Positions 15,963 through 31,756 of a DNA stretch of 32,859 bases are shown one piece after another. The DNA is taken from the NCBI GenBank assembly GCA_003353855.1, contig PIVS01000010.1, positions 1-32,859 on the forward strand, read 5' to 3'. Both the position numbers and the translations under genes were made by a program. Numbering within the stretch: position 1 is the stretch's first letter; every line of letters starts with the position of its first letter. The notes below the pieces were generated by a model. It saw nothing but the letters and a program-made list of their open reading frames with translations, did no database searches and had not been told where the DNA came from. The DNA is from Desulfobacteraceae bacterium (lineage in GTDB: Bacteria; Desulfobacterota; Desulfobacteria; Desulfobacterales; Desulfobacteraceae).

Positions 15963-16007
15963 TGGTACCTGGGACGAGAATTGAACTCGTACAACAGGAG
16001 TTAATTG
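15963..16007 (-). repeat. Orphan tRNA 3' half with CCA end (candidate attachment site)
   Basis: On the - strand the sequence reads TCCTGTTGT, then a perfect T arm (ACGAG, loop TTCAATT, CTCGT), an acceptor 3' strand CCCAGGT, the discriminator A and encoded CCA (15963-15965). No 5' acceptor strand (ACCTGGG) or D arm exists in the following few hundred bases, so it is not a working tRNA. A tRNA 3' part cut near the anticodon stem is what a tyrosine-recombinase element leaves at the distal end of an insertion. The next bases (about 16034-16059) carry two similar decamers, GGGACAACTT and GGGCAACCTT, possible integrase arm sites. The isoacceptor is not assigned. Confidence 0.7.
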
Positions 16008-16491
16008 CCTGTAATTATTATAATTTTTTTTACCCGGGACAACTTGTGGGCAACCTTTAACAAAAACACTTTTAAAACAAGGAGCAATTTCGGGGTAATT
16101 TCCCACCCCTCTCCTCTTATAAATCTTAAGCCGCTTATACACTAAAAAAAGATCTAATGCAAATAGCCGTATTGAGCTTTGAAAGTATACTTGAACAACC
16201 TTAATAATAAACAGCCCGGGATCTTTACAAAACCATCCAGTTGATCCCATTCTGCCGTCGGCAAAATATTTTAAAGACTCACCCATGGCACTGGAATTTT
16301 CCTATATGAAAAAGCATTTTGGATTTTCATATTTTCTATTGCAACATGATATAGATTCGTTCATTTAATGTATGAGTCTATTTTCATGTTGCCCTTCCCT
16401 ATGGAATCAGTGATTTCTTCAATTTTAATTTTTTTGTGCAAGATCACACCCAAAGAACGGTAAGAGTATAAATCTTGTGATAGTGAAACAT
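16008..16491. other. Intergenic region without convincing genes; several dyads upstream of a sigma-54 promoter
   Basis: I see no gene with a believable ribosome site or composition here; the tracked 15957-16286 (-) ORF runs through the tRNA remnant. Two perfect 9-bp inverted repeats stand out: ATATGAAAA (16304-16312)/TTTTCATAT (16324-16332) and GCAACATGA (16341-16349)/TCATGTTGC (16384-16392). The second lies roughly 100-150 bp before the sigma-54 promoter, where enhancer sites for an NtrC-type activator are expected. In an AT-rich spacer such dyads can arise by chance. Confidence 0.5.
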
Positions 16492-16508
16492 TTGGCACAA
16501 CAATTGCT
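16492..16508 (+). promoter_or_regulatory. Sigma-54 (-24/-12) promoter of small peptide and cyclase genes
   Basis: TTGGCACAACAATTGCT matches the sigma-54 consensus YTGGCACgrNNNTTGCW at every strongly conserved base, with GG (16494-16495) and GC (16506-16507) exactly 12 bp apart. Transcription would start near 16519, about 30 bp before a strong Shine-Dalgarno. Sigma-54 promoters need an ATP-driven activator; one is encoded at 28620-30008, but which activator acts here is not shown. Confidence 0.85.
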
Positions 16509-16562
16509 AAATTATTTTTTAAACAAAAATCATACAACCTATAAAAAAAGAGGAGGAAAATT

Positions 16563-16649
16563 ATGATATCTTCGTTTTTATTTTTAGTCTTGGTCGCTGG
16601 TTTTTTAGGGCTCATGGGATATGCTTTGTACTGTGTAGGATCCCAATAA
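16563..16649 (+). CDS. Small single-span membrane peptide (28 aa), not in the ORF track
   Basis: ATG 16563 is preceded by a perfect AGGAGG (16551-16556) at 6-bp spacing. The frame encodes MISSFLFLVLVAGFLGLMGY followed by ALYCVGSQ, almost entirely one hydrophobic helix with small residues (A, G, G) on it and a short polar C terminus with one Cys. It begins about 44 bp after the predicted sigma-54 start site and ends 48 bp before the cyclase gene, so both should share a transcript. The length and layout resemble small subunits or regulators of membrane complexes (KdpF, CydX type), but I see no sequence match to a named family. A partner in the downstream membrane-bound cyclase is a reasonable guess only. 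Confidence 0.65.
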   Translation: MISSFLFLVLVAGFLGLMGYALYCVGSQ

Positions 16650-16697
16650 ATAAATTCAAAATTATTCAATTTACTCTTCAGAGATGGAATTTTTATT

Positions 16698-18416
16698 ATG
16701 CTTATCGAAAGATTAAATTTTAAAACCCTTCAGGGAAGACTCATCGTATTGTTATTGTTTCCAGTCTTTTTGATCATATTTTCCGGAGGAATTTTAAGTT
16801 TTATATATACTCGAAATGCTATTCTCGATCAGTGGAATGAATCGGCTGTGCTAAAGCTTCAACGGGCAGCCCACTATATTGAAATGCGTCTTTTAAAACC
16901 CATTGAATTAATGGAAATGCTGTTTCAACTTTCTAAAAAAAAGGAGACACCGATATCCCCGGATACCATTGTGGATCATATAAAAACCCTGGAAGGCGTT
17001 ATTAATGTTGAGTTTCAAAATTTATCAGAAAATGATCACCTCATTTCAGTTCCTGAAAATTCAATGATGGCTAAACATGGGATAATGCATTTCCAGTACA
17101 GCCGAATATCCAAAATTTCTGATCCGGAATATGATAGCGATGTAGGGCATGAAACCGTGACGCTTATTTTGACCTTAATTGATGTCAGAGGAAATGATAG
17201 CGGTCAAATTAAGGTAAAAATGAGCTTTAATTACTTGCTCAAGGACATCATAAAGCTTGGATGGTGGCAAAGTGATATGGCCTGTATTGTTGATCAGGAT
17301 GGCAAATATATGGCTCATACCAATATGACAATGCAAGGCCGCCAGACTCTGGGTGGGGAAAATGACCCATTGGAAAAGGCAATTTTAAATAAAATGGAGG
17401 CCGATCCCTTTGGCACGGTTCAATCAGAAGGACATCCTCCGAATATGGTGGCAGGATTTTATAAACTCGAACAAATTCCCTGGACAATTATATTATTTGC
17501 AAAGGGAGAAAGTATTCTCAAGCCAATTATCCAATACAGAAATGTTTTTGCTTTAGGAAGTGCTGGTCTAATTTTTATCATCCTCCTGCTCATAAGACGG
17601 CATGTTGGCGAAATCGTCAGTCAGATAAAAATGTTGTCGAGAAATGCTAAAAAGGTCGCAGGCGGGGAATATGGTTCTCCCATCAAAGTGAGCAGCAAGG
17701 ATGAAATCGGGCAATTGGTGGGTAACTACAATAACATGGTAAAAGGTTTGATAGAACGGGATTTCATTCGGGATTCCTTTGGCCGATATGTTGACCCGGA
17801 GTTTGCAAAATATTTGTTAAAACATCCAGATGCTGGAGAACTGGGAGGCAAAAGAAGGGAAGTGGTCATGATGATGTCTGATATCAGGGGTTTTACAGCT
17901 CTTTCAGAAACCTTTAGCCCTGAAATTATCATCCGGGTTCTGAATCAGTATTTTTCCCACATGATAAAAATCATTCAGGAGCACAATGGTATTATTGTTG
18001 ATTTTTTTGGAGATGCGATACTGGTATTTTTTGAGCCGCTGTCGGGATCTACCTCTGACACATCGCTTTGCTGCATTCAGTGTGCCTCTCGTATGCAGTC
18101 TGAAATGGCAGCTTTTAATAAAAAAATGCAAGAAGAAAAATTGCCCGGCCTGGGTATGGGCATTGGAATAAATGCTGGCCAGGTAATTGTCGGGAATATC
18201 GGATCTGATACCCGGGCAAAATATGGGGTTGTGGGATCAGCAGTAAATATTACAAGCCGTATTCAGGCCAAGGCAGAGAAGAAGGAAATCATTATCTCTG
18301 AATCAGTATATCACTACACAAAGGATCAAATTCAGATTAAAAAAACATTTTCCACTGAATTGAAAGGGGTGGATGAACCAATGTCTCTACGGATAATAGA
18401 AGACATTATTGGCTAA
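16698..18416 (+). CDS. Membrane-bound class III adenylate/guanylate cyclase with dCache-like sensor and HAMP
   Basis: The 572-residue protein has a membrane span at ~15-37 and a periplasmic sensor of about 240 residues (IVDQDGKYMAHTN is typical of Cache domains). A second span lies at ~282-299, then HAMP (~300-352) and a class III cyclase domain (~385-565). Both metal-binding aspartates are present (D395 in MSDIRGF, D439 in FFGDAI), as are the transition-state pair N517/R521 in GSAVNITSR. The two purine-selecting positions read D435 and S514 instead of the adenylate pair Lys/Asp (or Thr), so the product, cAMP or cGMP, is open. It should turn an extracytoplasmic signal into a cyclic nucleotide. 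The gene follows the small peptide gene under a sigma-54 promoter, and overlaps the convergent methyltransferase gene by 4 bp. Confidence 0.9.
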   Translation: MLIERLNFKTLQGRLIVLLLFPVFLIIFSGGILSFIYTRNAILDQWNESAVLKLQRAAHYIEMRLLKPIELMEMLFQLSKKKETPISPDTIVDHIKTLEGVINVEFQNLSENDHLISVPENSMMAKHGIMHFQYSRISKISDPEYDSDVGHETVTLILTLIDVRGNDSGQIKVKMSFNYLLKDIIKLGWWQSDMACIVDQDGKYMAHTNMTMQGRQTLGGENDPLEKAILNKMEADPFGTVQSEGHPPNMVAGFYKLEQIPWTIILFAKGESILKPIIQYRNVFALGSAGLIFIILLLIRRHVGEIVSQIKMLSRNAKKVAGGEYGSPIKVSSKDEIGQLVGNYNNMVKGLIERDFIRDSFGRYVDPEFAKYLLKHPDAGELGGKRREVVMMMSDIRGFTALSETFSPEIIIRVLNQYFSHMIKIIQEHNGIIVDFFGDAILVFFEPLSGSTSDTSLCCIQCASRMQSEMAAFNKKMQEEKLPGLGMGIGINAGQVIVGNIGSDTRAKYGVVGSAVNITSRIQAKAEKKEIIISESVYHYTKDQIQIKKTFSTELKGVDEPMSLRIIEDIIG

Positions 18417-19030
18417 CGCTTTATTCCCCTACCCCAATAATTAAACGTTAAGGGCCTCGGACCTGGCAAATACGTGGTCTTCATCTCCTGAATATAAAAA
18501 CCTTCTCCTTCAATAAGCTCTGGTATTCTCCGGTTCAAATGACACCCCCCGGCAATATACCTCCACAGGGAAGTCAACCTGTTTTGCCATTTTAGAACAG
18601 CCTTGTCAGGTGCCAGACCATGTTCACAAAAATATAATTTTCCTCCAGGCTTAGGCACACGGTACATCTCTTTTAGAGCTGACAGAATATCAGGAATGGT
18701 GCAAAGGGTATATGTCACCACCACAGAGTCGATGCTATTACTTTCCAGGGGGATCTGGCAGGCAGAAGCATCTAAAAAGGAAACCCTGTCCATTCGTCGT
18801 TGAGCCCTCTTTTCGGCCATGGAAATCATTTTTAAAGAAGGCTCAAGACCTATGAGGAGAGATACTTTTCGATGATCATAAAAAGGGAAATTCAGACCTG
18901 AACCCACACCTATCTCAAGGACCCTTCCAGTTGCCTGGCGAACGATTTTTTCCCGTTGTCGAGTGATTGGACTGCTACTGCATAAATGGTTAACGATTCC
19001 AGGCAAAATATACTCTCTATAAAAACTCAT
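18413..19030 (-). CDS. Class I SAM-dependent methyltransferase
   Basis: The 205-residue protein has motif I VLEIGVGSGLNFPFY, an acidic residue at the end of strand 2 (GLEPS), motif II region SIDSVVVTYTLCTIPD and PGGKLYFCEHG. This is the Methyltransf_11 pattern, closest in feel to UbiE- or METTL7-like enzymes. The HGLAPDKAVLKWQNRLTSLWRYIAGGCHLNR segment is typical of METTL7-like small-molecule or thiol methyltransferases. The substrate cannot be derived. It stands alone, convergent with the cyclase and divergent from the metal-efflux operon. The ribosome site is weak. Confidence 0.85.
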   Translation of the reverse strand: MSFYREYILPGIVNHLCSSSPITRQREKIVRQATGRVLEIGVGSGLNFPFYDHRKVSLLIGLEPSLKMISMAEKRAQRRMDRVSFLDASACQIPLESNSIDSVVVTYTLCTIPDILSALKEMYRVPKPGGKLYFCEHGLAPDKAVLKWQNRLTSLWRYIAGGCHLNRRIPELIEGEGFYIQEMKTTYLPGPRPLTFNYWGRGIKR

Positions 19031-19251: not shown

Positions 19252-19268
19252 TTGGCATACCTTGTGCA
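19252..19268 (+). promoter_or_regulatory. Sigma-54 (-24/-12) promoter of the metal-efflux locus
   Basis: TTGGCATACCTTGTGCA has GG (19254-19255) and GC (19266-19267) 12 bp apart and agrees with the sigma-54 consensus except at a few weak positions. Transcription would start near 19280, 50 bp before the Met/His-rich peptide gene. The same locus encodes a sigma-54-dependent activator, which strengthens the call. Confidence 0.8.
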
Positions 19269-19686: not shown

Positions 19687-21033
19687 ATGAAACAGTTTAT
19701 TATCTTAGCAGTTTTTCTATGTTTTGGAGTCTTGGCCTTTTCGCCGGACAATTCTTTTGCATCAGAAAAGGGGGGGCTTCCTGAAATAGAGGACAGGTTG
19801 TCTGAGAGCCTTGATCTGTCAGATCTACTCCACTATGCATATTTGTCAAATCCCTCTATTACAGCTTCACGGGAATCCTGGCAGATCTTTATCGAGAACT
19901 ACAGGATTGGAAAAAGCTATCCAGATCCCCAGCTCATGACTACTTATTTCCCCAATCCCATCGAAACAAGATTAGGGCCCCAGGACTGGAACCTGACTCT
20001 GTCCCAGGCAATTCCCTTTCCCGGGACCTTGTCACAAAAGGGCAAAGTACTGGAGGCCGATGCCAAGATTGCAAGGCTTATGGTGGATAAAACAGTTAAA
20101 AATATCGTTACCGCTGTTTCTTCTTCTTATTATGAATTGATTTACATCCAGAAAGCCATTGATGTTGCAACAGCAAACCTGACTTTAAACCAGAAATTAT
20201 TGAATATCAGTCACAACGCCTATGCTCAAGACAAAGCTCTTTTCTACGATGTGTCCAAGGCCCGGGCACAGACTGCACAGATTCAATATGACATCATGCT
20301 GTTGCAGGAACTGGAACAAACAGAAAAAACAAAGATTAATATCTTGTTAAACAGGCCCCCCAATGAAGCCATTGGCAAAGCAATGAATCTTGCCCCAAAA
20401 CAGGTGGTCTATTCATTGGACGAAATTTATGGCCTCTCCATGATTTACCAGGAAGATAATCTTATTGCCCAAGAAGCCATTCTAAAGTCAGAAGAAGCCA
20501 TTCAGCTTACCAAATATGAAAATCTACCCTCGTTCAAGTTTGGTCTTTTTTATGCCGGTATCGGCCAGCCGGATGTGGCATCTCCTCCAAAGGATGCCGG
20601 GGATGATGCTGTCGGGGTACAACTGGGTTTAAATCTTCCGTTGTGGTTTGGTAAAAATAAAAGCCGAACGGCAAAGGCAAAAGCTTTCAAAGCAAAAGCA
20701 ACGGCTGATAAAACCGTGACCGCTAACAGAACCAAAGCCAGGATCAGCCGCCTCTGGTTTAAGCTACAGAATTCAAATCGTTTGATTCTCCTTTATGAAA
20801 ACGATCTGCTGCCCCAGGCCCTTGCTTCCGTTAAAACCTCTGAGACCTGGTTCCGAGAAGGACAGGGAAATTTTGCTGATTTCCTGGAGATCCAGGCAAC
20901 CGCCTATAACTTTCAACTATCCCTTGAACGGGCAAAGACTGATTATAGCAAAACTCTTGTACAGCTTGAACAACTGGCCGGAGTAATTCTTGATAGAAAA
21001 AATCCTGAACCAGAAGGAGAGAAGGAGCAATGA
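19687..21033 (+). CDS. TolC-family outer-membrane efflux protein 1 (CusC-like)
   Basis: Starting at ATG 19687 gives 448 residues with a clean signal peptide (MKQFIILAVFLCFGVLAFSPDNSFA) and an AAGGA ribosome site; the tracked start at 19642 adds a polar tail. Two OEP repeats are visible (about 55-240 and 265-440), with the usual amphipathic helices and the VGVQLGLNLPLWFGKNKS / LSQAIPFPGTL strand segments. TolC-type trimers form the outer-membrane duct of tripartite efflux pumps. No lipobox is present. It overlaps the next gene by ATGA and starts the run of four co-directed efflux genes. Confidence 0.9.
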   Translation: MKQFIILAVFLCFGVLAFSPDNSFASEKGGLPEIEDRLSESLDLSDLLHYAYLSNPSITASRESWQIFIENYRIGKSYPDPQLMTTYFPNPIETRLGPQDWNLTLSQAIPFPGTLSQKGKVLEADAKIARLMVDKTVKNIVTAVSSSYYELIYIQKAIDVATANLTLNQKLLNISHNAYAQDKALFYDVSKARAQTAQIQYDIMLLQELEQTEKTKINILLNRPPNEAIGKAMNLAPKQVVYSLDEIYGLSMIYQEDNLIAQEAILKSEEAIQLTKYENLPSFKFGLFYAGIGQPDVASPPKDAGDDAVGVQLGLNLPLWFGKNKSRTAKAKAFKAKATADKTVTANRTKARISRLWFKLQNSNRLILLYENDLLPQALASVKTSETWFREGQGNFADFLEIQATAYNFQLSLERAKTDYSKTLVQLEQLAGVILDRKNPEPEGEKEQ

Positions 21034-22559
21034 AAATAATAATAAGCGGTATATTTATTCTAAGTATTCTTTGTGTATCACTATTATATGCAGATTATGA
21101 CAGCATGAAAAAAGACCTGGAAGAATACACTCCGCAAAAGAGTTTTGCCATCATAGCCGAGCCTGGTGTTCAAGAAGCGAAGACGTTTCCTGGTAATGCT
21201 CCTATCGTTGCAGAAATAAAAACCTTGAAAAAGGGTTATGAAAAAGAAATTTCCAACCCGAACAGCCGGCTTATCGAGATAGGGGTGGATGAAAAAATCC
21301 TCAAACGGCTATCCGGGATATCTTCTGATCAAGATGCGCTCATTAAACATATTGAGCAAAAAATCCGTTTGAATGAGATTCGAGTCATTGCTGTCTTGCG
21401 CAATCCGGCTATCCAGGCCGCCCAAAAAAAAGTAATGGCTGAAATCCAGTCCTTTGACCAGGTCATGAACCTGGACAGCACGCTTAAGCAATATGCCTCT
21501 TTCACCAAGCCAATCAATAATAAGGTTGGTCCCCTGAAAGGGAAGGATTCCATTAAAATGAATTATCCTTTTCCAGGATTGTCCGCCCTTAAAGGCCGTA
21601 TTGTTCAAAGCCAGGTGGCCATGTTGATGGAAAAGATGAAAATTATTAACAAACAGGTTATCAGAGATGTCGAAAAAGCCTATTGGGACTTTATTTTTGT
21701 AGTAAAATCGACAAAGATCACCACGGAGACCATTGATGCTTTTGAACGTCTTGGGGGTGTCGCCACATCCCTGTACAAAAGCGGTAAAACCAGCTTCCAG
21801 GATGTGATCAAGATCAATATTAAGATAGAAGAACTCAAAGAAGATCTGGTTACCTTGAAAGCCAAAAAGAAAAATATAGAAATCCGGATTCTTGAACTTT
21901 TAAACCTACCGGCTAACATCCGTTTAGGCAAGGCTATTGTCGCCCAGCAGCCTCCCAAAACGCCCCGGGCTGAAGCTCTTTTTTCCCTTGCCAGGGAGCA
22001 CCGCCAGGAACTCAAAGCAATCCGGTTTCAGATCAGCAAACTTGAGTCCATGGTGGAAATGTCGGAATCCATGATAGAAGCTCCGCTTACCCTGGGATTT
22101 TCAACTTCTGAAAATGATATCGTCAACACAACTGGTACCGACGCCCCCAATGAGGCCTTTGCCACCAAGACCATGGCGGCCATGAAAAATAACACCCCTG
22201 CCAAACCCTTATACGGGTTGGATGAACCCTGGCTTGCGCAAACAAGGCAGAATCTGTCAAGCCTTCGACAAACTCTGCTAACCCAGGAAAATGCCACAAC
22301 CAGGATGGTGAGAAATGCCTGGTTTAAAACAGACAAAAATCGAAGGGAATTCAGCTTATATCAAAACCGAATTCTGCCTTTGGCAAAATCTGCTCTGGAT
22401 GTGTCCACCAAGGAGTACGAAGCCGGGTCCATCCCATTTTCCCAAGCCATTGATTCCTATACCTATTGGCTGAAAGTTAAATTGACCATCGCAAAAAAAC
22501 AGGCTGACCTTGGCACCTCCTTTGCTGAACTGGAAAATATTGTGGGAAAACAATTATGA
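21030..22559 (+). CDS. TolC-family outer-membrane efflux protein 2, divergent
   Basis: This 509-residue protein starts with a signal peptide (MKIIISGIFILSILCVSLLYA) and shows the OEP pattern from about residue 100 on (NPAIQAAQKKVMAE..., VEKAYWDFIFVVKSTK, LYKSGKTSFQDVIKI, ...VSTKEYEAGSIPFSQAIDSY). The first 90 residues and a low-complexity loop near 355-395 (NTTGTDAPNEAFATKTMAAM) are extra compared with protein 1. The two outer-membrane genes are adjacent and translationally coupled but clearly not recent duplicates. One pump with two ducts is unusual; they may form a mixed trimer or serve different partners. The start overlaps gene 1 and the stop overlaps the adaptor gene (ATGA at both ends). 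Confidence 0.85.
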   Translation: MKIIISGIFILSILCVSLLYADYDSMKKDLEEYTPQKSFAIIAEPGVQEAKTFPGNAPIVAEIKTLKKGYEKEISNPNSRLIEIGVDEKILKRLSGISSDQDALIKHIEQKIRLNEIRVIAVLRNPAIQAAQKKVMAEIQSFDQVMNLDSTLKQYASFTKPINNKVGPLKGKDSIKMNYPFPGLSALKGRIVQSQVAMLMEKMKIINKQVIRDVEKAYWDFIFVVKSTKITTETIDAFERLGGVATSLYKSGKTSFQDVIKINIKIEELKEDLVTLKAKKKNIEIRILELLNLPANIRLGKAIVAQQPPKTPRAEALFSLAREHRQELKAIRFQISKLESMVEMSESMIEAPLTLGFSTSENDIVNTTGTDAPNEAFATKTMAAMKNNTPAKPLYGLDEPWLAQTRQNLSSLRQTLLTQENATTRMVRNAWFKTDKNRREFSLYQNRILPLAKSALDVSTKEYEAGSIPFSQAIDSYTYWLKVKLTIAKKQADLGTSFAELENIVGKQL

Positions 22560-24064
22560 AAAACACAGGGGAAAACTTCATGAAAATAACAAGGTTTGGA
22601 TTGACCATTATCTTCACTGCGCTGATAACCGGTACAGCCGTTTTTTATATAATGACTGCCCTCACTACCTTCGCCCCGGCAACAGGGCAAGCAACCAAAG
22701 AAGGCACTAAAGAACGGAAAATCATCTATTGGAAAGCCCCCATGGATCCCACTGAGATCTATGAAGAGCCAGGCAAAAGTAAGATGGGTATGGATCTTGT
22801 CCCTGTATACGAGGATGAGATGGCAGGAGAGGACGATGACAAGGAACGAAAAATAGTTTATTGGAAGGCCCCCATGGATCCAACCGAGATCTATGATCAA
22901 CCAGGTAAGAGCAAGATGGGCATGGACCTTGTCCCGGTGTATGAGGACGAACTGGTGGGCGGAGTGGACATTAAAATCAATCCTGTGGTGGAACAGAACA
23001 TGGGGTTGAAAGTTGAGTCCGTTGAAAAAGGCCCCTTGAACCATATCGTCAGAACCTATGGGCATGTTACCTTTGATGAGACCCTGACAGGTATTATCAG
23101 TCAGAAATCTTCTGGCTGGATAGAAACGCTTTATGCAGACTATACTGGCTTTATGGTTAAAAAGGGGGACCCCTTATATGAGATTTATTCTCCCTCCCTA
23201 CTGGCCTCCCAGGAAGAATACCTCTCTGCCTATAAAAATCACCAGAGAAGCAAAAGTAAATTAAACAAAGAACTGCTTGAATCAGCCAGGAAAAGGCTCC
23301 AGTATTATGATATTGCGGACCAGGAAATCAGACGCATTGAAAAATCGGGTCAGGTTCAAAAAACCTTGACCGTCAGATCCCCTTACCAGGGTGTGATAAC
23401 CCATAAAAATGTCATTGAAGGGAGCTATGTCAAAACCGGCGCAAGCCTCTTTACCATTGCCGATCTGTCCACTGTATGGGTAGAAGCCCATATCTTTGAA
23501 TATGAACAAAATCTGGTTTATGAAGGGCAGGAAGTTGAAATGATCTTGTCCTATAATCCAGATAAGGTCCACACCGGTAAAATCTCTTATATTTTCCCAT
23601 ATTTGCAGCCAAAAACCCGGGATGTGATCATCCGGATTTCCTTTGAAAACACAAAAGATGAATTAAAGCCGGACATGTTTGCCCAGATTAAGATCAATAC
23701 CAACACTGATAATGCAGGATTATTTATCTCTTCCCAGGCCGTCATTCATTCTGGAGAGAAAAAAATAGTCTTCGTGGCAAAGGGCAAAGGGACTTTCACT
23801 CCCAGACAGATCACCACAGGAATATTTCTGGAACAGGGAAGAGTTCAGGTATTAAGCGGTCTTGCTGCAGGAGAAAATATTGTGGTGTCCGGACAGTTTC
23901 TACTGGATTCTGAGTCCAAGCTCAAAGAGGCAATTCAAAAAATGATCGAATCAAAATCCGGTCTTGCAGCGGTGGGACAGACAGCGACAAAAGAGGGTCC
24001 AGATGACTTCTTTGATGAGATGGATGAAAAGCCAAAAGACGACTTCTTCAAGGACATGGAATAG
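22556..24064 (+). CDS. CusB-like RND periplasmic adaptor with duplicated heavy-metal-binding domain
   Basis: This 502-residue membrane-fusion protein has an N-terminal anchor or signal (~9-32). Two near-identical metal-binding units follow (residues 52-88 and 96-132): YWKAPMDP...PGKSKMGMDLVPVYEDE, 34 of 37 residues equal. The barrel-sandwich/beta-barrel core comes next (IISQKSSGWIETLYADYTGFMVKKGDPLYEIYSPSL, TVRSPYQGVITHKNVIEGSYVKTG, KPDMFAQIKI). The unit is the HMBD family seen once in many CusB proteins; this Met-only version lacks the Cys of the CPMHP/CPxCGM form, which suggests Cu(I)/Ag(I). The acidic tail carries DDFFDEMDEKPKDDFF. M9 (22580) is an alternative start. It links the CusA pump to the outer-membrane duct. 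Confidence 0.93.
   Translation: MKNTGENFMKITRFGLTIIFTALITGTAVFYIMTALTTFAPATGQATKEGTKERKIIYWKAPMDPTEIYEEPGKSKMGMDLVPVYEDEMAGEDDDKERKIVYWKAPMDPTEIYDQPGKSKMGMDLVPVYEDELVGGVDIKINPVVEQNMGLKVESVEKGPLNHIVRTYGHVTFDETLTGIISQKSSGWIETLYADYTGFMVKKGDPLYEIYSPSLLASQEEYLSAYKNHQRSKSKLNKELLESARKRLQYYDIADQEIRRIEKSGQVQKTLTVRSPYQGVITHKNVIEGSYVKTGASLFTIADLSTVWVEAHIFEYEQNLVYEGQEVEMILSYNPDKVHTGKISYIFPYLQPKTRDVIIRISFENTKDELKPDMFAQIKINTNTDNAGLFISSQAVIHSGEKKIVFVAKGKGTFTPRQITTGIFLEQGRVQVLSGLAAGENIVVSGQFLLDSESKLKEAIQKMIESKSGLAAVGQTATKEGPDDFFDEMDEKPKDDFFKDME
22709..22951 (+). repeat. Tandem duplication encoding two metal-binding units in the adaptor
   Basis: Unit 1 at 22709-22819 and unit 2 at 22841-22951 are offset by 132 bp (44 codons). 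The proteins are 34/37 identical while many third codon positions differ, so the duplication is not very recent and both copies appear to be under protein-level selection. Confidence 0.85.
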
Positions 24065-24080: not shown

Positions 24081-27000
24081 ATGATAGATAAAATAATTGA
24101 GTGGTCCGTAAACAACAAATTCATGGTGGTCCTGGCAACTTTTTTCGTCATTGTCGGCGGAATTCTGGCCATGATCAACACGCCTCTGGATGCCATACCC
24201 GATCTTTCCGATGTCCAGGTAATCATCTATACGGAATACCCGGGCCAGGCCCCCCAAGTGGTGGAAGACCAGGTCACCTATCCATTGACAACCGCTATGC
24301 TCAGTGTACCTTTTGCCAAAGTGGTCAGGGGATATTCCTTTTTTGGTGTTTCTTTTGTCTACCTCATTTTTGAAGACGGTACCGATATCTACTGGGCCCG
24401 ATCCAGGGTAATGGAATATTTAAATTTTGTATCCGGTCGTCTACCTGACGGAGTCACCCCCAGCCTCGGGCCTGATGCCACTGGTGTGGGATGGGTCTAT
24501 GAATATATTTTAAAAGACACCACCGGTAAAACAGATCTGGCCGAACTGCGCTCCCTCCAGGACTGGTTTGTCCGCTACGAACTGACAGCCGTTCCAGGGG
24601 TGTCAGAAGTGGCCAGTATCGGCGGCTTTGTCAAACAATACCAGGTGGAGGTGGATCCTAACAAATTACTTTCTTATAATATTCCCATACAAAAGATCAA
24701 AAAAGCCATCCAGCGCTCCAATGCCGATGTGGGAGGTAAACTTATAGAGATGGGAGAAACCGAATTCATGGTCCGGGGCCTTGGATATATAAAATCGGTT
24801 GAAGACATTGAACAGGTTGCGGTCTCCGTTGATGACAAAGGCACCCCTATTTTATTAAAGGATATTGCCAATATCGGAATCGGGCCTGAGCTTCGTCGGG
24901 GAATTTTGGAGTGGAATGGCGAAGGTGAAACCGTTGGTGGTATCGTTATCATGCGGTTTGGTGAAAATGCTCTGGAGGTAATAAAACGGGTCAAAGAGAA
25001 ATTAAAAGATTTGGAAAAAGGATTGCCCGAAGGCGTCGAGATTGTCTCTGGATATGACAGATCCGCTTTAATTGAACGGGCGGTAGAAACCCTTAAAGTC
25101 AAGCTCACCGAAGAAATGATTGTGGTGGCCTTAATTTGTATCATATTCCTGCTTCATTTCAGATCTGCCTTTGTCGCCATTTTCACCCTTCCTGTTGGTA
25201 TATTGATGTCCTTTATGATCATGTTCCCCTTTGGTATTAATGCCAATATCATGAGCTTGGGCGGTATTGCCATCGCTATTGGTGTTATGGTGGATGCCTC
25301 CATCGTTATGGTTGAGAATGCCCATAAACACCTGGAACGGGATCGGGGCAAAAAAAGTCATACCCAGATCATCATCAATGCCTCCAAGGAAGTGGGACCC
25401 GCCTTGTTTTTCAGTCTTTTGATCATTACGGTTTCTTTTTTGCCCGTGTTCAGCCTTATGGAACAGTCGGGAAGACTTTTTAGACCCTTGGCCTATACCA
25501 AGACATCTGCCATGGCGGCTTCGTCTATTCTGGCTATTACCATCATTCCGGTGCTCATGACCTTTTTTGTCAGGGAAAACCCCATAGACCCTAAATTGCC
25601 GGGAAGACAAAAGACTAAAATCTGGATTCTTGCTTTGTCGGGTCCCCCTTTGGCTGTCATTATTGCCGGGTTTGCCGGCATTAAATTACCGGAACTAAGC
25701 CTTGTCTTTGCCCTTGGCTTTTCCATATTTCTTGGGATCTGTCTTTCTCCTCAAAAAATTATACCCGAGGGAAAAAATCCTTTGAACCGGTTCTTGATCC
25801 GAATATACCTACCAACAATTAAGCGGGTGCTAAAATGGCGGAAAATTACAGTATTGGTTTCCCTGGCCGCTATAGCCGTTACCTGGTACCCCATGAGCCG
25901 TGTGGGAAGTGAATTTATGCCGCCCTTAAACGAAGGGGATCTCTTGTACATGCCCACAACCCTGCCAGGTATTTCCATTACCAAGGCAAAGGAACTATTG
26001 CAGCAAACCGATAAGATCATCAAACGGTTTCCTGAAGTGAAAAGCGTCATGGGAAAAATCGGCCGGGCCGAGACCTCCACAGATCCGGCACCCCTGTCCA
26101 TGATCGAAACAGTGATCGTATTGAGGCCCCAGGTCGAGCATGAAATGATTGATAAAAAACGATTTTTTTCTAATTGGGCTGTCTGGTTGAAAAAACCACT
26201 GACCTGGGTCTGGCCGGAACAGGTAAAAGGAAAGATTCTCCATGAATGGCGAAAGAAACCAATCAAATGGTTTTATTCCAATTGGCCAAAGATATTTAAA
26301 GTTCCCTTTACCTGGATAATACCCCAGGAACGGTATATTACTATCCACGAACTGGCTGATGATCTGGAGCAGGCCGTTAAGTTTCCCGGGCTTACAAATG
26401 CCTGGACCATGCCCATTAAGACCCGTATAGATATGCTCTCCACAGGCATCAAAACCCCGGTGGGTATTAAGATCATGGGACCAGATCTTGAGATCCTGGC
26501 CAACCTCGGCGAACAGATTGAGGCACTGCTTAGAAATAAAAAAGGGACTATGTCCGTATTCTCCGAGCGGGTCACCGGAGGCAATTACCTTGATTTTACC
26601 ATCAAAAGAGAAGAGATCGCCCGGTACGGTCTCCATGTACAGGATGTCCAAGACATTATAAAAACGGCCATCGGAGGTATGAATGTGACCTATACAATTG
26701 AGGGCCTGGAAAGATATCCGGTCAATCTGCGTTACAATAGAGAGTTCCGTGATAATATTGACATGATCAAACGAGTATTGATCCCCACCCCGTCCGGAGC
26801 CCAGGTGCCCTTAACCCAATTGGCTGATATTTCCATTAAAAAGGGGCCTGCCGGTATCAAGAGTGAAAACTCCAAACGGAGTGCCTGGGTCTTTGTGGAC
26901 ATTAAAAACATGGATATTGGTACCTATGTGAAACAGGCCCGCAAAATGGTAGATGAGAACATTGAGCTACCATCGGGATACTCACTGGTCTGGTCGGGCC

Positions 27001-27563
27001 AATATGAATATATGGAAAAGGCCAGAAAAACGTTGAACATCATTATCCCGGCCACCCTGCTGGTGATTTTTATTCTGCTTTTTATCCACTTTAACAATAT
27101 CATTGAAGTGGTTATTGTAATGGCCAGCCTTCCTTTTGCCCTTCTGGGCGGGTTCTGGCTTATCTATCTTCTGGGCTATAATATGTCCGTTGCCGTGGGC
27201 GTCGGGTTCATTGCCCTGGCAGGTCTTTCTACGGAAACCGGTATTGTCATGCTGGTCTACCTGGATGAAGTTTTTAAACGGAAAAAAGAAGAAAACCGAA
27301 TGAAAACAGCCGCAGACCTCAATGCCTCCATTGTTGAAGGGGCTGTAGAGAGGGTCCGCCCCTTAATCATGACCGTTGCCACCACCCTGATTGGTCTTTT
27401 GCCGGTTATGTATGGTAGTGGAGCTGGCTCCCAAATCATGAAACGGATCGCAGCCCCCATGGTGGGTGGGCTTATCTCCTCCACTATTATGACATTAATC
27501 ATCATCCCGGTGTTCTACGATATATGGAAAACCCGGGAAATTAACAACAAAAACAAACCTTAA
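24081..27563 (+). CDS. cusA: CusA-like heavy-metal efflux RND pump with enlarged periplasmic insert
   Basis: This 1160-residue HME-RND transporter is longer than E. coli CusA (1047). The proton-relay Asp is at D405 (GVMVDASIVMVENAHK). The Met triad of Cu(I)/Ag(I) pumps is kept: M624 (GDLLYM), M674 (APLSM) and M785 (RIDMLSTGIK). The first two are 50 apart, as in E. coli M573 and M623. About 60 extra residues lie between the second and third Met. They contain two Trp-rich copies, FFSNWAVWLKKPLTWVWPEQ (695-714) and FYSNWPKIFKVPFTWIIPQE (731-750). A further short hydrophobic insert is near 510-550. It exports periplasmic or cytoplasmic metal by proton antiport with the adaptor upstream. An AAGGA site precedes the ATG. 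Confidence 0.95.
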   Translation: MIDKIIEWSVNNKFMVVLATFFVIVGGILAMINTPLDAIPDLSDVQVIIYTEYPGQAPQVVEDQVTYPLTTAMLSVPFAKVVRGYSFFGVSFVYLIFEDGTDIYWARSRVMEYLNFVSGRLPDGVTPSLGPDATGVGWVYEYILKDTTGKTDLAELRSLQDWFVRYELTAVPGVSEVASIGGFVKQYQVEVDPNKLLSYNIPIQKIKKAIQRSNADVGGKLIEMGETEFMVRGLGYIKSVEDIEQVAVSVDDKGTPILLKDIANIGIGPELRRGILEWNGEGETVGGIVIMRFGENALEVIKRVKEKLKDLEKGLPEGVEIVSGYDRSALIERAVETLKVKLTEEMIVVALICIIFLLHFRSAFVAIFTLPVGILMSFMIMFPFGINANIMSLGGIAIAIGVMVDASIVMVENAHKHLERDRGKKSHTQIIINASKEVGPALFFSLLIITVSFLPVFSLMEQSGRLFRPLAYTKTSAMAASSILAITIIPVLMTFFVRENPIDPKLPGRQKTKIWILALSGPPLAVIIAGFAGIKLPELSLVFALGFSIFLGICLSPQKIIPEGKNPLNRFLIRIYLPTIKRVLKWRKITVLVSLAAIAVTWYPMSRVGSEFMPPLNEGDLLYMPTTLPGISITKAKELLQQTDKIIKRFPEVKSVMGKIGRAETSTDPAPLSMIETVIVLRPQVEHEMIDKKRFFSNWAVWLKKPLTWVWPEQVKGKILHEWRKKPIKWFYSNWPKIFKVPFTWIIPQERYITIHELADDLEQAVKFPGLTNAWTMPIKTRIDMLSTGIKTPVGIKIMGPDLEILANLGEQIEALLRNKKGTMSVFSERVTGGNYLDFTIKREEIARYGLHVQDVQDIIKTAIGGMNVTYTIEGLERYPVNLRYNREFRDNIDMIKRVLIPTPSGAQVPLTQLADISIKKGPAGIKSENSKRSAWVFVDIKNMDIGTYVKQARKMVDENIELPSGYSLVWSGQYEYMEKARKTLNIIIPATLLVIFILLFIHFNNIIEVVIVMASLPFALLGGFWLIYLLGYNMSVAVGVGFIALAGLSTETGIVMLVYLDEVFKRKKEENRMKTAADLNASIVEGAVERVRPLIMTVATTLIGLLPVMYGSGAGSQIMKRIAAPMVGGLISSTIMTLIIIPVFYDIWKTREINNKNKP

Positions 27564-28619: not shown

Positions 28620-30008
28620 TCACTTTTCCCCCTTGGGTAGTATGTGGTCAAGGGACAGGTGATGTCGTTTCATTTTATTGTTCAGAGTTGTTCGGGTGAT
28701 ATTCAAAATTTTGGACGCTTCACTCTTATTCCCTTTTGTTTGTTTTAAGGTCTCAACAAGTGCCAGGCTTTCAATTTCATCAAGGGACTTTCCGCCCAGG
28801 GATAACTGAGTTTTAAACGAGGCTTCCGGACGATACTCTTTCATCACATTTATCGGCAGGTCCTTTTCAGATACATATTGCCCCATGGATAAAATGACGG
28901 CTCTTTCAATGGCATTTTCAAGTTCTCGCACATTGCCGGGCCATTGATATTTTGTCAGGGCATCCATTGCCATGGGGGTGAATCCCTTCAGGGCTTTCCT
29001 GTTCTTTTTGGTATATTTTTTTAGAAATTTTTGAGATAGAAGGGGGACATCGCCTGTTCGGTCTTCTAGCGGCGGGATCTCTATGTTTACAACATTCAGG
29101 CGGTAAAATAGATCTTCTCTGAAGGTCTTTTTTTTGACTTCTTTTCCCAGATTACGGTTTGTTGCGGCAATAATACGAACATTCACTTTTATGGTTTTGT
29201 CGCTGCCTACACTTTGAATCTCTTTTTCCTGAATGGCTCTGAGCAACTTTACCTGCATGGAAAGAGGCATCTCTCCGATTTCATCTAAAAAAATAGACCC
29301 CTTATCCGCCTGTCTGAACAGGCCGTCACGTTTCTTGTCCGCACCGGTGAAAGCTCCTTTTTCATGACCAAACAATTCTGATTCCAGAAGGGTTTCGGTC
29401 AAGGCAGCACAATTTACAACCACCAGCATGTGGTCTCGCCGGTAACTGGTTTTGTGGATCGCCTTTGCAAAAAGTTCTTTGCCTGTGCCACTTTCACCAG
29501 TAATAAGAATATTGGCATCAGATTTGGCTGTGATTTTAGCTGTTTCCATGACCCTTTCCATGGTCCGGCTTGATCCAATGATGTCCGAAAAACTGCTTCC
29601 TGATAAAAGTTTCTCTTTAAGGACCTTATTTTCTATGGATAGCTTTAAATGGCTCATGGCCCTGTCGATTATAATTTTAAGTTCTTCAAAATTTAGCGGT
29701 TTGGTTAAATAATCATAGGCCCCAAGCTTCATGGCTTCTACTGCTTTGTCCACTGAGGAATACGCCGTCATAATAATGATAGGGATGGATGGATTGAATT
29801 CTTTGATCTGTTGTAATGCCTCTATACCATCAATACTGGACATCCTGACGTCCATAAGAATCAAATCATAGGGATTTTCTCGGGCTGACTCTATGGCCTG
29901 GCCTCCATCGGTTGCCTTTTCAACCTTGTGACCCAAGCTGCCCAGAACGGTATTGAGCATGGTAAGATGCCCTAAATCATCATCTACGACTAAGATACGT
30001 CCTTTCAT
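28620..30008 (-). CDS. Sigma-54-dependent response regulator (NtrC/ZraR family)
   Basis: The 462-residue protein has a receiver domain (1-120) with phospho-acceptor D53 in LILMDVRM. The AAA+ domain (~143-370) has Walker A GESGTGKE (171-178), GAFTGA (218-223, the sigma-54 contact loop) and DEIGEMP. The C-terminal Fis-type helix-turn-helix reads NKSEASKILNITRTTLNNKMKRH. It should activate sigma-54 promoters from upstream sites after phosphorylation by the kinase, whose gene overlaps it by 4 bp. The sigma-54 promoter with palindromes at 19119-19268 is the obvious target; 16492 is a second candidate. It converges on the cytochrome gene with a 36-bp gap without a terminator. Confidence 0.95.
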   Translation of the reverse strand: MKGRILVVDDDLGHLTMLNTVLGSLGHKVEKATDGGQAIESARENPYDLILMDVRMSSIDGIEALQQIKEFNPSIPIIIMTAYSSVDKAVEAMKLGAYDYLTKPLNFEELKIIIDRAMSHLKLSIENKVLKEKLLSGSSFSDIIGSSRTMERVMETAKITAKSDANILITGESGTGKELFAKAIHKTSYRRDHMLVVVNCAALTETLLESELFGHEKGAFTGADKKRDGLFRQADKGSIFLDEIGEMPLSMQVKLLRAIQEKEIQSVGSDKTIKVNVRIIAATNRNLGKEVKKKTFREDLFYRLNVVNIEIPPLEDRTGDVPLLSQKFLKKYTKKNRKALKGFTPMAMDALTKYQWPGNVRELENAIERAVILSMGQYVSEKDLPINVMKEYRPEASFKTQLSLGGKSLDEIESLALVETLKQTKGNKSEASKILNITRTTLNNKMKRHHLSLDHILPKGEK

Positions 30009-31756
30009 ATCGGGTTTTCCTTTTCCCCAGTAATGGGCAATGACATTGAAATTGTTGTGCCATAGTTTTCTGTGCTTTCTACCTGTATAAAACCATTGTG
30101 GTTTTCTATAATTTTATGGGCAATGGCCAACCCCAGACCGGTACCTTTATTTTTAGTGGTAAAATAGGGGTCAAATATATGTTTTAAATTTTCCACGGGG
30201 ATCCCCCCCCCCGTATCAGATACATTAATAATAATGCTTGATCCTTTTTTTTCTGCCTGCGCTATAAGATTGCCTCCTTCGGCCATGGCTTGAATGGCAT
30301 TGAGATATAAATTTAAGAGAACCTGAGTCAACCGGTCCGGGTCCGCTTTAAGATCCGGCAGGTCTGATTTTATAATTTTTTTAATTTGAATACCAGCGGT
30401 TTCGGCTTCGTGAGTGACAATTCGTATGGAATGATCAATCAAGTCTCTTACCTTGATTTTTTTAAATTTGAGATCAGAGGGCCTTGCAAATTCAAGGAGC
30501 TCGGAAATCACACGATTTACCCGGTCCACCTCTTCTGCCATGAGATTTGCGGCTTGTTTATTTTCACTGCTGTCCTCGAACAGGCTGCCAAAATAGGTGA
30601 CATACCCTTTTATAGAGCTTAACGGGTTTCTAATTTCATGGGCAATACCAGCGGCCAGGTTTCCAACTGTGGCCAGTTTTTCAATGCGCTGTGTTTTTAT
30701 TTCCAGTTCCCTGATTTCTGTTAAATCTTTAAGAACAATCATAAAACCAATGTATTTTCCACCTTCTCCGTGGATGTCTGTTGCACTGACAGCCACCGGA
30801 ACCGATTTGTTTTTTTCTATTAAAAGACAAATCTCTTTTTCTGCTACCGGCTGGCCTGATTTGATCATACCATGCAAACTCCATATATTATCTGGAAGAA
30901 GCTCTTTGGCATCCACACCTTGCACTGCCTGTTCATTTGTCCCAAGAAGATCCCATGCAACAGCATTGCTGTATATGACCCGATACCGGGTATCCATAAC
31001 AAGAATCCCTACAGGCAGATGGGTTACCACTTCCGATGCCAGTTTTTGGGTGTCCTGAAGAAGTTTGCGAGAACGGGTATAGTTTTGTGCCCAGAAGAGT
31101 GAGATAACCCCTGCAAGACCGAGAGAAAAAATAATTGCGGCCATCACAATATTATGTTTCAAATCTTCTCTCATGGCTATTTCAAAAGGGGCGATATTCA
31201 TTCCAATAAAAATATAGGGGCGATTGGTAGGGTCCAGAATTTTTCGGGTTGTGACACTGTTTCCCCAGTCTTGATGATCATGCCCCGGATGGTCGAAAAT
31301 CGGCAAAAAGGTCTTGTATACTTCAAAATATTTTATCCCGTTCTCCTGGCCCACTATTCTCCATTGGGGCAGGTTGGATGGGGAAAGGATCTCTAAAATA
31401 TCGGAATCTACAAATTTTTTCCCAATCAGAGATTTTTTATTATGGGCAAGAATTACCCCTGAACTATCCACTATGCTAATATAAGAAATATCAGACTGCC
31501 CAGCAGTCTCCTCCAGAAGTACCTGTAAATGAATTTCATTTGCAAACACCCCCATTTTTCCCATCATACCCATCATACCGGTGCGTGTGCCTGCTTCAAA
31601 GGAACGAATCAGAGCAGCCCCCTTTTCTTTCAAAAGCTGTCCCATCTGCTCTTTATCCCGATTGTAATTAACAACCCCCAAGAATCCCACAACCGTAATA
31701 AGAACCAAACTGATCCCAATGGTCATCCAGGGGGATATATGAATTTTAGATTTCAT
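30005..31756 (-). CDS. Membrane sensor histidine kinase with Met- and His-rich periplasmic motifs (ZraS-like)
   Basis: The 583-residue kinase has TM1 (~11-30), a periplasmic sensor (~31-202), TM2 (~203-223), PAS (~240-350), HisKA with H373 in AAGIAHEIRNPLSS and HATPase_c (NLYLNAIQAM, DTGGGIPVE, GTGLGLA). The sensor begins with GTRTGMMGMMGKMG (five Met in residues 61-68) and later has DHPGHDHQD (H156, H159, H161). Both could bind Cu(I)/Ag(I) or similar ions. The layout resembles ZraS-type kinases of metal stress and of related sensors in Desulfobacterota. It is first in a two-gene operon with the regulator. The promoter was not identified. Confidence 0.93.
   Translation of the reverse strand: MKSKIHISPWMTIGISLVLITVVGFLGVVNYNRDKEQMGQLLKEKGAALIRSFEAGTRTGMMGMMGKMGVFANEIHLQVLLEETAGQSDISYISIVDSSGVILAHNKKSLIGKKFVDSDILEILSPSNLPQWRIVGQENGIKYFEVYKTFLPIFDHPGHDHQDWGNSVTTRKILDPTNRPYIFIGMNIAPFEIAMREDLKHNIVMAAIIFSLGLAGVISLFWAQNYTRSRKLLQDTQKLASEVVTHLPVGILVMDTRYRVIYSNAVAWDLLGTNEQAVQGVDAKELLPDNIWSLHGMIKSGQPVAEKEICLLIEKNKSVPVAVSATDIHGEGGKYIGFMIVLKDLTEIRELEIKTQRIEKLATVGNLAAGIAHEIRNPLSSIKGYVTYFGSLFEDSSENKQAANLMAEEVDRVNRVISELLEFARPSDLKFKKIKVRDLIDHSIRIVTHEAETAGIQIKKIIKSDLPDLKADPDRLTQVLLNLYLNAIQAMAEGGNLIAQAEKKGSSIIINVSDTGGGIPVENLKHIFDPYFTTKNKGTGLGLAIAHKIIENHNGFIQVESTENYGTTISMSLPITGEKENPI

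Follow-up and report, generated by a model that had tools for sequence, protein, structure and literature searches.

Gene organization of the locus

The window analyzed here is a stretch of 32,859 nucleotides from a Desulfobacteraceae bacterium (assembly GCA_003353855.1, contig PIVS01000010.1, positions 1 to 32,859 of the forward strand). As listed in Table 1, a putative sigma-54 type promoter (P1) precedes an ORF for a hydrophobic microprotein and a gene for a receptor cyclase, which heads a Cus-type metal-efflux cluster, and genes for a ZraSR-like regulator pair lie behind the pump gene on the opposite strand.

Table 1. Positions of the predicted genes and sites in the window, with the evidence for each.
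Feature	Position	Strand	Evidence
P1, sigma-54 type promoter TTGGCAC-N5-TTGCT	16492..16508	+	Exact match
AGGAGG ribosome binding site	16551..16556	+	6 nt 5' of ATG; read from sequence
28-residue single-helix hydrophobic microprotein	16563..16649 (stop included)	+	G066 homologue, codon-position test, G002 relic
Receptor cyclase: TM, dCache-like sensor with Met/His loop, TM, HAMP, class III catalytic domain	16698..18416	+	Pfam, PDB sequence matches, fold matches, loop
Palindrome TGTCTAAAaATTAGACA, possible activator site for P2	19119..19135		Inverted-repeat scan; function putative
P2, second sigma-54-like site TTGGCATACCTTGTGCA, ahead of pump genes	19252..19268	+	Like sites in 8/10 loci
46-residue His/Met-rich ORF after P2	19318..19458	+	Similar ORFs in G001, G066
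Two outer-membrane efflux proteins, CusC type	19687-21033 and 21030-22559	+	PF02321
CusB-type adaptor with heavy-metal binding domains	22556..24064	+	PF16576, PF19335
CusA/CzcA family heavy-metal RND pump	24081..27563	+	TIGR00914, 1162.4 bits (cut-off 701.45)
Sigma-54 activator response regulator, nearest model ZraR	28620..30008	-	PF00158, PF00072; ZraR 531.9 bits (below cut-off 760)
Sensor histidine kinase, nearest model ZraS	30005..31756	-	sCache_3_2 27.6 bits (below cut-off 28.4), PAS, HATPase

The microprotein ORF comprises 28 codons, with the translation MISSFLFLVLVAGFLGLMGYALYCVGSQ. A first-pass annotation of this DNA had described an AGGAGG site ahead of the ORF, a spacing of 48 bp to the cyclase gene, and a terminal Cys. 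The site and the spacing were found as described, with 48 nt between the stop codon and the cyclase ATG, but the single Cys is residue 24 of 28. The microprotein matched no Pfam family, SHOCT (PF09851) included.

A methyltransferase gene (18413-19030, minus strand) is located between the cyclase and the pump genes, and no ORF of 90 aa was found at its place in genome G002. Positions 15966-16050 resemble a tRNA 3' end by eye; ARAGORN reported no tRNA there, and the tRNA scan and Rfam search of the whole window returned neither a tRNA nor an RNA family.

Sequence conservation of the microprotein

A six-frame search of 86 genomes of the family detected a homologue of the same size in another genus (G066; 52% identity, E 7.7e-4). 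This peptide, MVQSLFFFFLILFGFLGIIIYAFYCIGSR, shares the core GFLGxxxYAxYCxGS with that of the window and is encoded directly ahead of an orthologous cyclase (locus L039; gap of 42 nt) that is 70% identical to the window cyclase. The linkage of the peptide with a homologous cyclase, which the first-pass annotation had put forward as a check, is therefore present in a second genus. The two peptides have the same residue in 14 of 28 aligned codons, 9 of these 14 being different codons, and the nucleotide differences number 9, 4, and 19 at codon positions 1, 2, and 3, respectively. In a simulation of 20,000 mutants carrying identical base changes, none attained the observed BLOSUM score, while 992 attained the identity count. 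The codon-position pattern and the simulation provide good evidence of a selected, translated protein, as the annotation had supposed, and very probably the microprotein ORF is a genuine small gene.

This conservation bears on whether the ORF is a leader, whose translation itself, not its product, sets the translation of the cyclase. CutF-like leaders are described ahead of metal genes: in the passages of PMC9973294 considered here, Rhodobacter CutF is, like the microprotein, encoded by a small ORF that stands first in a metal operon, has a signal peptide, a CxxxC motif, a proline-rich end, and a stem-loop, and by its translation sets that of cutO in response to copper. A leader role would also suit the perfect ribosome binding site of the peptide and the poor one of the cyclase. 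However, the amino acids are conserved, not the position alone, and most cyclase orthologues occur without the peptide. In the window and G066, sequence inspection and RNA folding detected no CxxxC motif, proline-rich C-terminus, or downstream stem-loop; both peptides are free of proline, and the folding z-scores between the genes were +1.63 and +1.03, respectively. Protein-level selection and the absence of RNA structure disfavor a CutF-type leader, and we consider this reading unlikely.

Type I toxins include short hydrophobic peptides about 28 residues in size, so the microprotein might be a membrane-acting toxin-like protein or an otherwise unrelated small protein that was placed by chance. 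The same neighbor in two genera and the Rfam result, which leaves room for an antisense RNA, argue against this reading, and we regard it as highly improbable.

Distribution of the microprotein

When a profile of the two sequences was searched against 389 genomes of the order, short ORFs were found in the window and G066 only. Elsewhere in the 86 family and 389 order genomes, the matches lay within longer ORFs (G178, G152, G114, G108, and a second match in G066) or antisense to an MCP gene (G061, E 0.07), and all of these were dropped. Genus group g8 comprises 19 genomes; among these, the cyclase at E<=1e-75 was present in G066 and G068 only, and the peptide was present only in G066, the genome whose cyclase is close to that of the window.

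The upstream test covered 32 rows, with G003 lacking true upstream sequence and G086 having a short one. Intact peptides were found in 2 rows and a relic in 1 (G002), 28 rows did not exceed the scores of their own shuffles, and the G100a row, which carries a SHOCT helix, reached 33 where its best shuffle scored 30. No peptide was detected in these rows ahead of the G001 cyclase (79% identical) or the remaining cyclase relatives. In G002, whose cyclase is intact and 93% identical, the peptide frame is broken by a 26-nt deletion followed by an insertion of ~85 nt; the ribosome binding site is weakened, and the relic FLGLVEYALYC persists in another frame. This frameshifted sister copy would fit a reading in which the window copy, too, is a decaying remnant without present function. 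The window copy is, however, intact, with a perfect ribosome binding site and promoter, and protein-level selection is seen across the G000-G066 split; a remnant seems to us very improbable.

In a cyclase tree from which G003, G095, the JAIPDY row, and both phosphatase rows were omitted, with X and stop signs removed, G066 grouped with G000 and G002 (support 81/88), and G001 fell outside. A single origin with subsequent losses and a transfer along with the cyclase both fit the history of the peptide.

In Desulfotignum-group loci, the slot of the peptide is occupied by a small SHOCT (PF09851) membrane protein; loci L006, L007, L035, L053, and L054 have a sigma-54 site, the SHOCT membrane protein, and the cyclase in this order. 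Truncation of a SHOCT gene was rejected as the source of the microprotein, since a gap of 48 nt is too small for a SHOCT tail. Alignments of the peptide to the SHOCT helix scored 33 in G100a (best shuffle 30), 33 in G032a (34), and 24 in G028a (39). These scores are near or below the shuffled maxima, with G100a just above its shuffles, so the case for a SHOCT origin is weak.

As judged from these searches, the microprotein is rare and poorly conserved. The first-pass annotation had made conservation of the frame, wherever the cyclase is kept, the test of its proposal, and the outcome largely went against it: the frame is broken in G002 and was undetected ahead of the others. Broken or undetected in most cyclase relatives, the peptide is no obligatory subunit of this cyclase family, and its rarity weakens the view of it as a regulator of the cyclase and undercuts a general regulatory role.

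Putative sigma-54 type promoter upstream of the microprotein

The core of P1, TGGCACAACAATTGCT (16493-16508), has 0 mismatches to the pattern TGGCAC-N5-TTGCW, in agreement with the essentially perfect promoter of the first-pass annotation. The window contains two perfect cores against 0.06 expected from shuffles. In the whole genome, YTGGCACN5TTGCW gave 11 matches, and since the reversed control pattern also gave 4, the perfect match alone is not proof of a promoter. The other core in the window (22511-22526) is located within the second OEP (CusC-type) gene, shortly 5' of the CusB start at 22556, and represents either chance or an internal promoter.

Conservation ahead of related head genes adds support for P1. 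Sigma-54-like sites at p<=0.05 against shuffles were found upstream of 16 of the 31 head genes scored, a count that leaves out G003 (contig cut, no true upstream) and may contain one duplicate, as L035, the JAIPDY row, probably represents the G108 locus. The remaining 15 include G068 (p 0.06), G086 (113 nt only), the second diverged cyclase group, and G066, where no convincing site was found upstream of the peptide (best score 6.5, p 0.49 against shuffles). The occurrence of sites at part of the head genes of the cyclase family suggests that sigma-54 control is independent of the peptide. A search for an activator-site motif common to the regions upstream of the promoters found none. Together, the motif and its conservation support P1 as a putative sigma-54 type promoter.

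Domains and sensor loop of the receptor cyclase

The cyclase matched PF00211 (Guanylate_cyc) with 92.9 bits (cut-off 21.9) and HAMP with 34.6 bits (cut-off 25). The dCache match of its sensor was below the Pfam cut-off (E 0.068), and a low-confidence sensor model (mean pLDDT 60.5) matched solved dCache domains with Z about 10-11. Of the dCache-HAMP-class III architecture first proposed for this protein, the HAMP and class III parts thus hold above their cut-offs, and the dCache part is indicated by the sub-threshold match and the low-confidence model. D395, D439, N517, and R521 were invariant across 7 aligned cyclase proteins; we take the two Asp residues to be the metal-binding pair and N517/R521 to be the Asn/Arg pair of class III cyclases. 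At position 435, presumably the purine-recognition site, the cyclase has an Asp that aligns with Glu in 2w01 and Lys in 6fht. With Asp in place of the ATP-specific adenylyl Lys, a preference for ATP should not be assumed.

The sensor contains a Met/His-rich loop (window 16995-17120). Across 31 rows, the share of Met and His was 10-25% in this loop, whose bounds were chosen by hand, versus 5-8% in the whole proteins. In 12 family rows the mean share in the loop was 0.148, and in 34 rows from outside the family it was 0.097 (p 0.02), two of the latter giving a loop of only 4 residues. This loop, which also occurs in many relatives outside the family, suggests a metal-sensing family. No plasmid record encoding the cyclase was found at E<=1e-60.

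Association of the sensor with Cus-type clusters

The gene context was surveyed in wide neighborhoods of 16 loci and the window, comprising 18 head genes. Same-strand outer-membrane efflux genes of a Cus-type cluster were located behind 14 of these (12 cyclases and 2 phosphatases), the exceptions being G032b, G028b, G086, and G079, the last near a contig end. The arrangement of the window recurs in other Desulfobacteraceae genomes. Between the head gene and the pump, the P2-like pattern TGG[C/T]-N8-TGC was present in 8 of 10 loci, with ~0.6 expected by chance as an estimate rather than a shuffle control. In G014 and G031, the same sensor is joined to a SpoIIE-type phosphatase (assigned by PF07228, 158.5 bits, in G014 and by alignment in G031); in L085 (8702-10549) and L086 (8798-10624), the gene heading the pump cluster encodes such a sensor-phosphatase instead of a cyclase.

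The sensor family was detected in 42 of 395 phylum genomes at E<=1e-15 and in 94 of 389 order genomes at E<=1e-20. Outside the family, a CusA relative (at least 47% identity) was near the sensor in 5 of 20 loci (L152, L158, L163, L164, and L165), an OEP without CusA in one (L159), and a distant RND match of 25% in another (L151). The Cus linkage of the sensor is looser outside the family.

Proposed role of the microprotein and the cyclase

The ZraSR-like pair is likely the activator of the sigma-54 promoters. With Cus-type genes behind the cyclase and a sigma-54 activator close by, the peptide could have partners besides the cyclase, the RND pump among them. AcrZ is a small protein on the RND pump AcrB, and YohP, a 27-residue membrane protein of E. 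coli, is assigned to a class up-regulated in stress. By analogy, the microprotein could serve the pump or the stressed membrane and merely share the cyclase transcript; a pump accessory would suit the regulon, and co-location fits a cyclase partner and a pump partner alike. This is the strongest rival explanation, and we find it doubtful: the ORF adjoins the cyclase and not the pump in both species, the pump has its own sigma-54-like site, and Cus loci without the peptide are common.

We tentatively favor, with confidence somewhat short of even, the reading that the microprotein is a real, lineage-restricted, single-helix inner-membrane protein, co-expressed under sigma-54 control with a cyclase, probably metal-sensing, that leads a Cus-type locus, and that it most likely packs on the cyclase TM helices and tunes signaling or stability. 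Selection on the peptide, its position, the promoter motifs, and the gene order lead us to infer a course in which the peptide is translated and the kinase-regulator pair, once activated by metal stress, would open the sigma-54 promoters, one for the peptide and the cyclase and the other for the pump. The receptor would then detect periplasmic metal, probably of the Cu/Ag class, and cyclic nucleotide would be produced, while the microprotein, most likely lying in the membrane beside the receptor, would tune signaling or stability in a few lineages. The first-pass proposal of a regulator or stabilizer of the cyclase is supported by the linkage seen in G066, whereas the broken frame in G002 and the lack of detection ahead of other relatives count against it; a partnership with the cyclase is plausible.

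The metal-efflux context, which the first-pass annotation had missed, is of greater interest than the question of a regulatory role for the peptide. Metal-efflux loci are usually described as being under transcription regulators alone. In a broader and rather speculative proposal, which we think somewhat unlikely, dCache receptors with a Met/His loop, their output swapped between a cyclase and a SpoIIE-type phosphatase, head sigma-54-controlled Cus clusters and convert the presence of metal in the periplasm into a signal carried by a second messenger or a phosphatase, and one lineage acquired a dedicated 28-residue subunit that tunes the cyclase. If true, a receptor cyclase heading a pump cluster would connect a diffusible second messenger with metal stress, and a signaling enzyme would have a very small subunit in its 28-residue partner.

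Comparison with known systems

The closest solved catalytic domains are those of the guanylyl cyclase Cya2 (2W01) and the class III adenylyl cyclases CyaB and CyaC, with matches that cover the catalytic part only. SHOCT proteins (PF09851), at ~88 residues with a SHOCT tail, show no convincing homology to the microprotein. E. coli ZraSR provides the nearest NCBIfam models of the regulator pair, both scoring below the curated cut-offs (471.7 bits against an equivalog cut-off of 479 for ZraS); to our knowledge, the ZraSR system has no cyclase.

Among open PubMed Central titles and abstract beginnings, nothing was found on a cyclase in a Cus locus or on a membrane-peptide partner of a bacterial cyclase. 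According to a survey of sigma-54 regulons, whose main text lacks the word copper, Desulfobacteria have the most activators (PMC12316311), and a Desulfovibrio copper transcriptome study mentions RND pumps, in a main text without the word cyclase (PMC8836040). In Myxococcus xanthus, CorSR/curA resembles the present locus in having a sigma-54 response regulator with a kinase and a copper cluster with several putative sigma-54 promoters (PMC3707914). It differs in encoding a multicopper oxidase, a P-type ATPase, and others, with neither a cyclase nor a membrane microprotein in the passages of that paper considered here. On the basis of those passages, CorSR is a precedent for a copper cluster under sigma-54 control.
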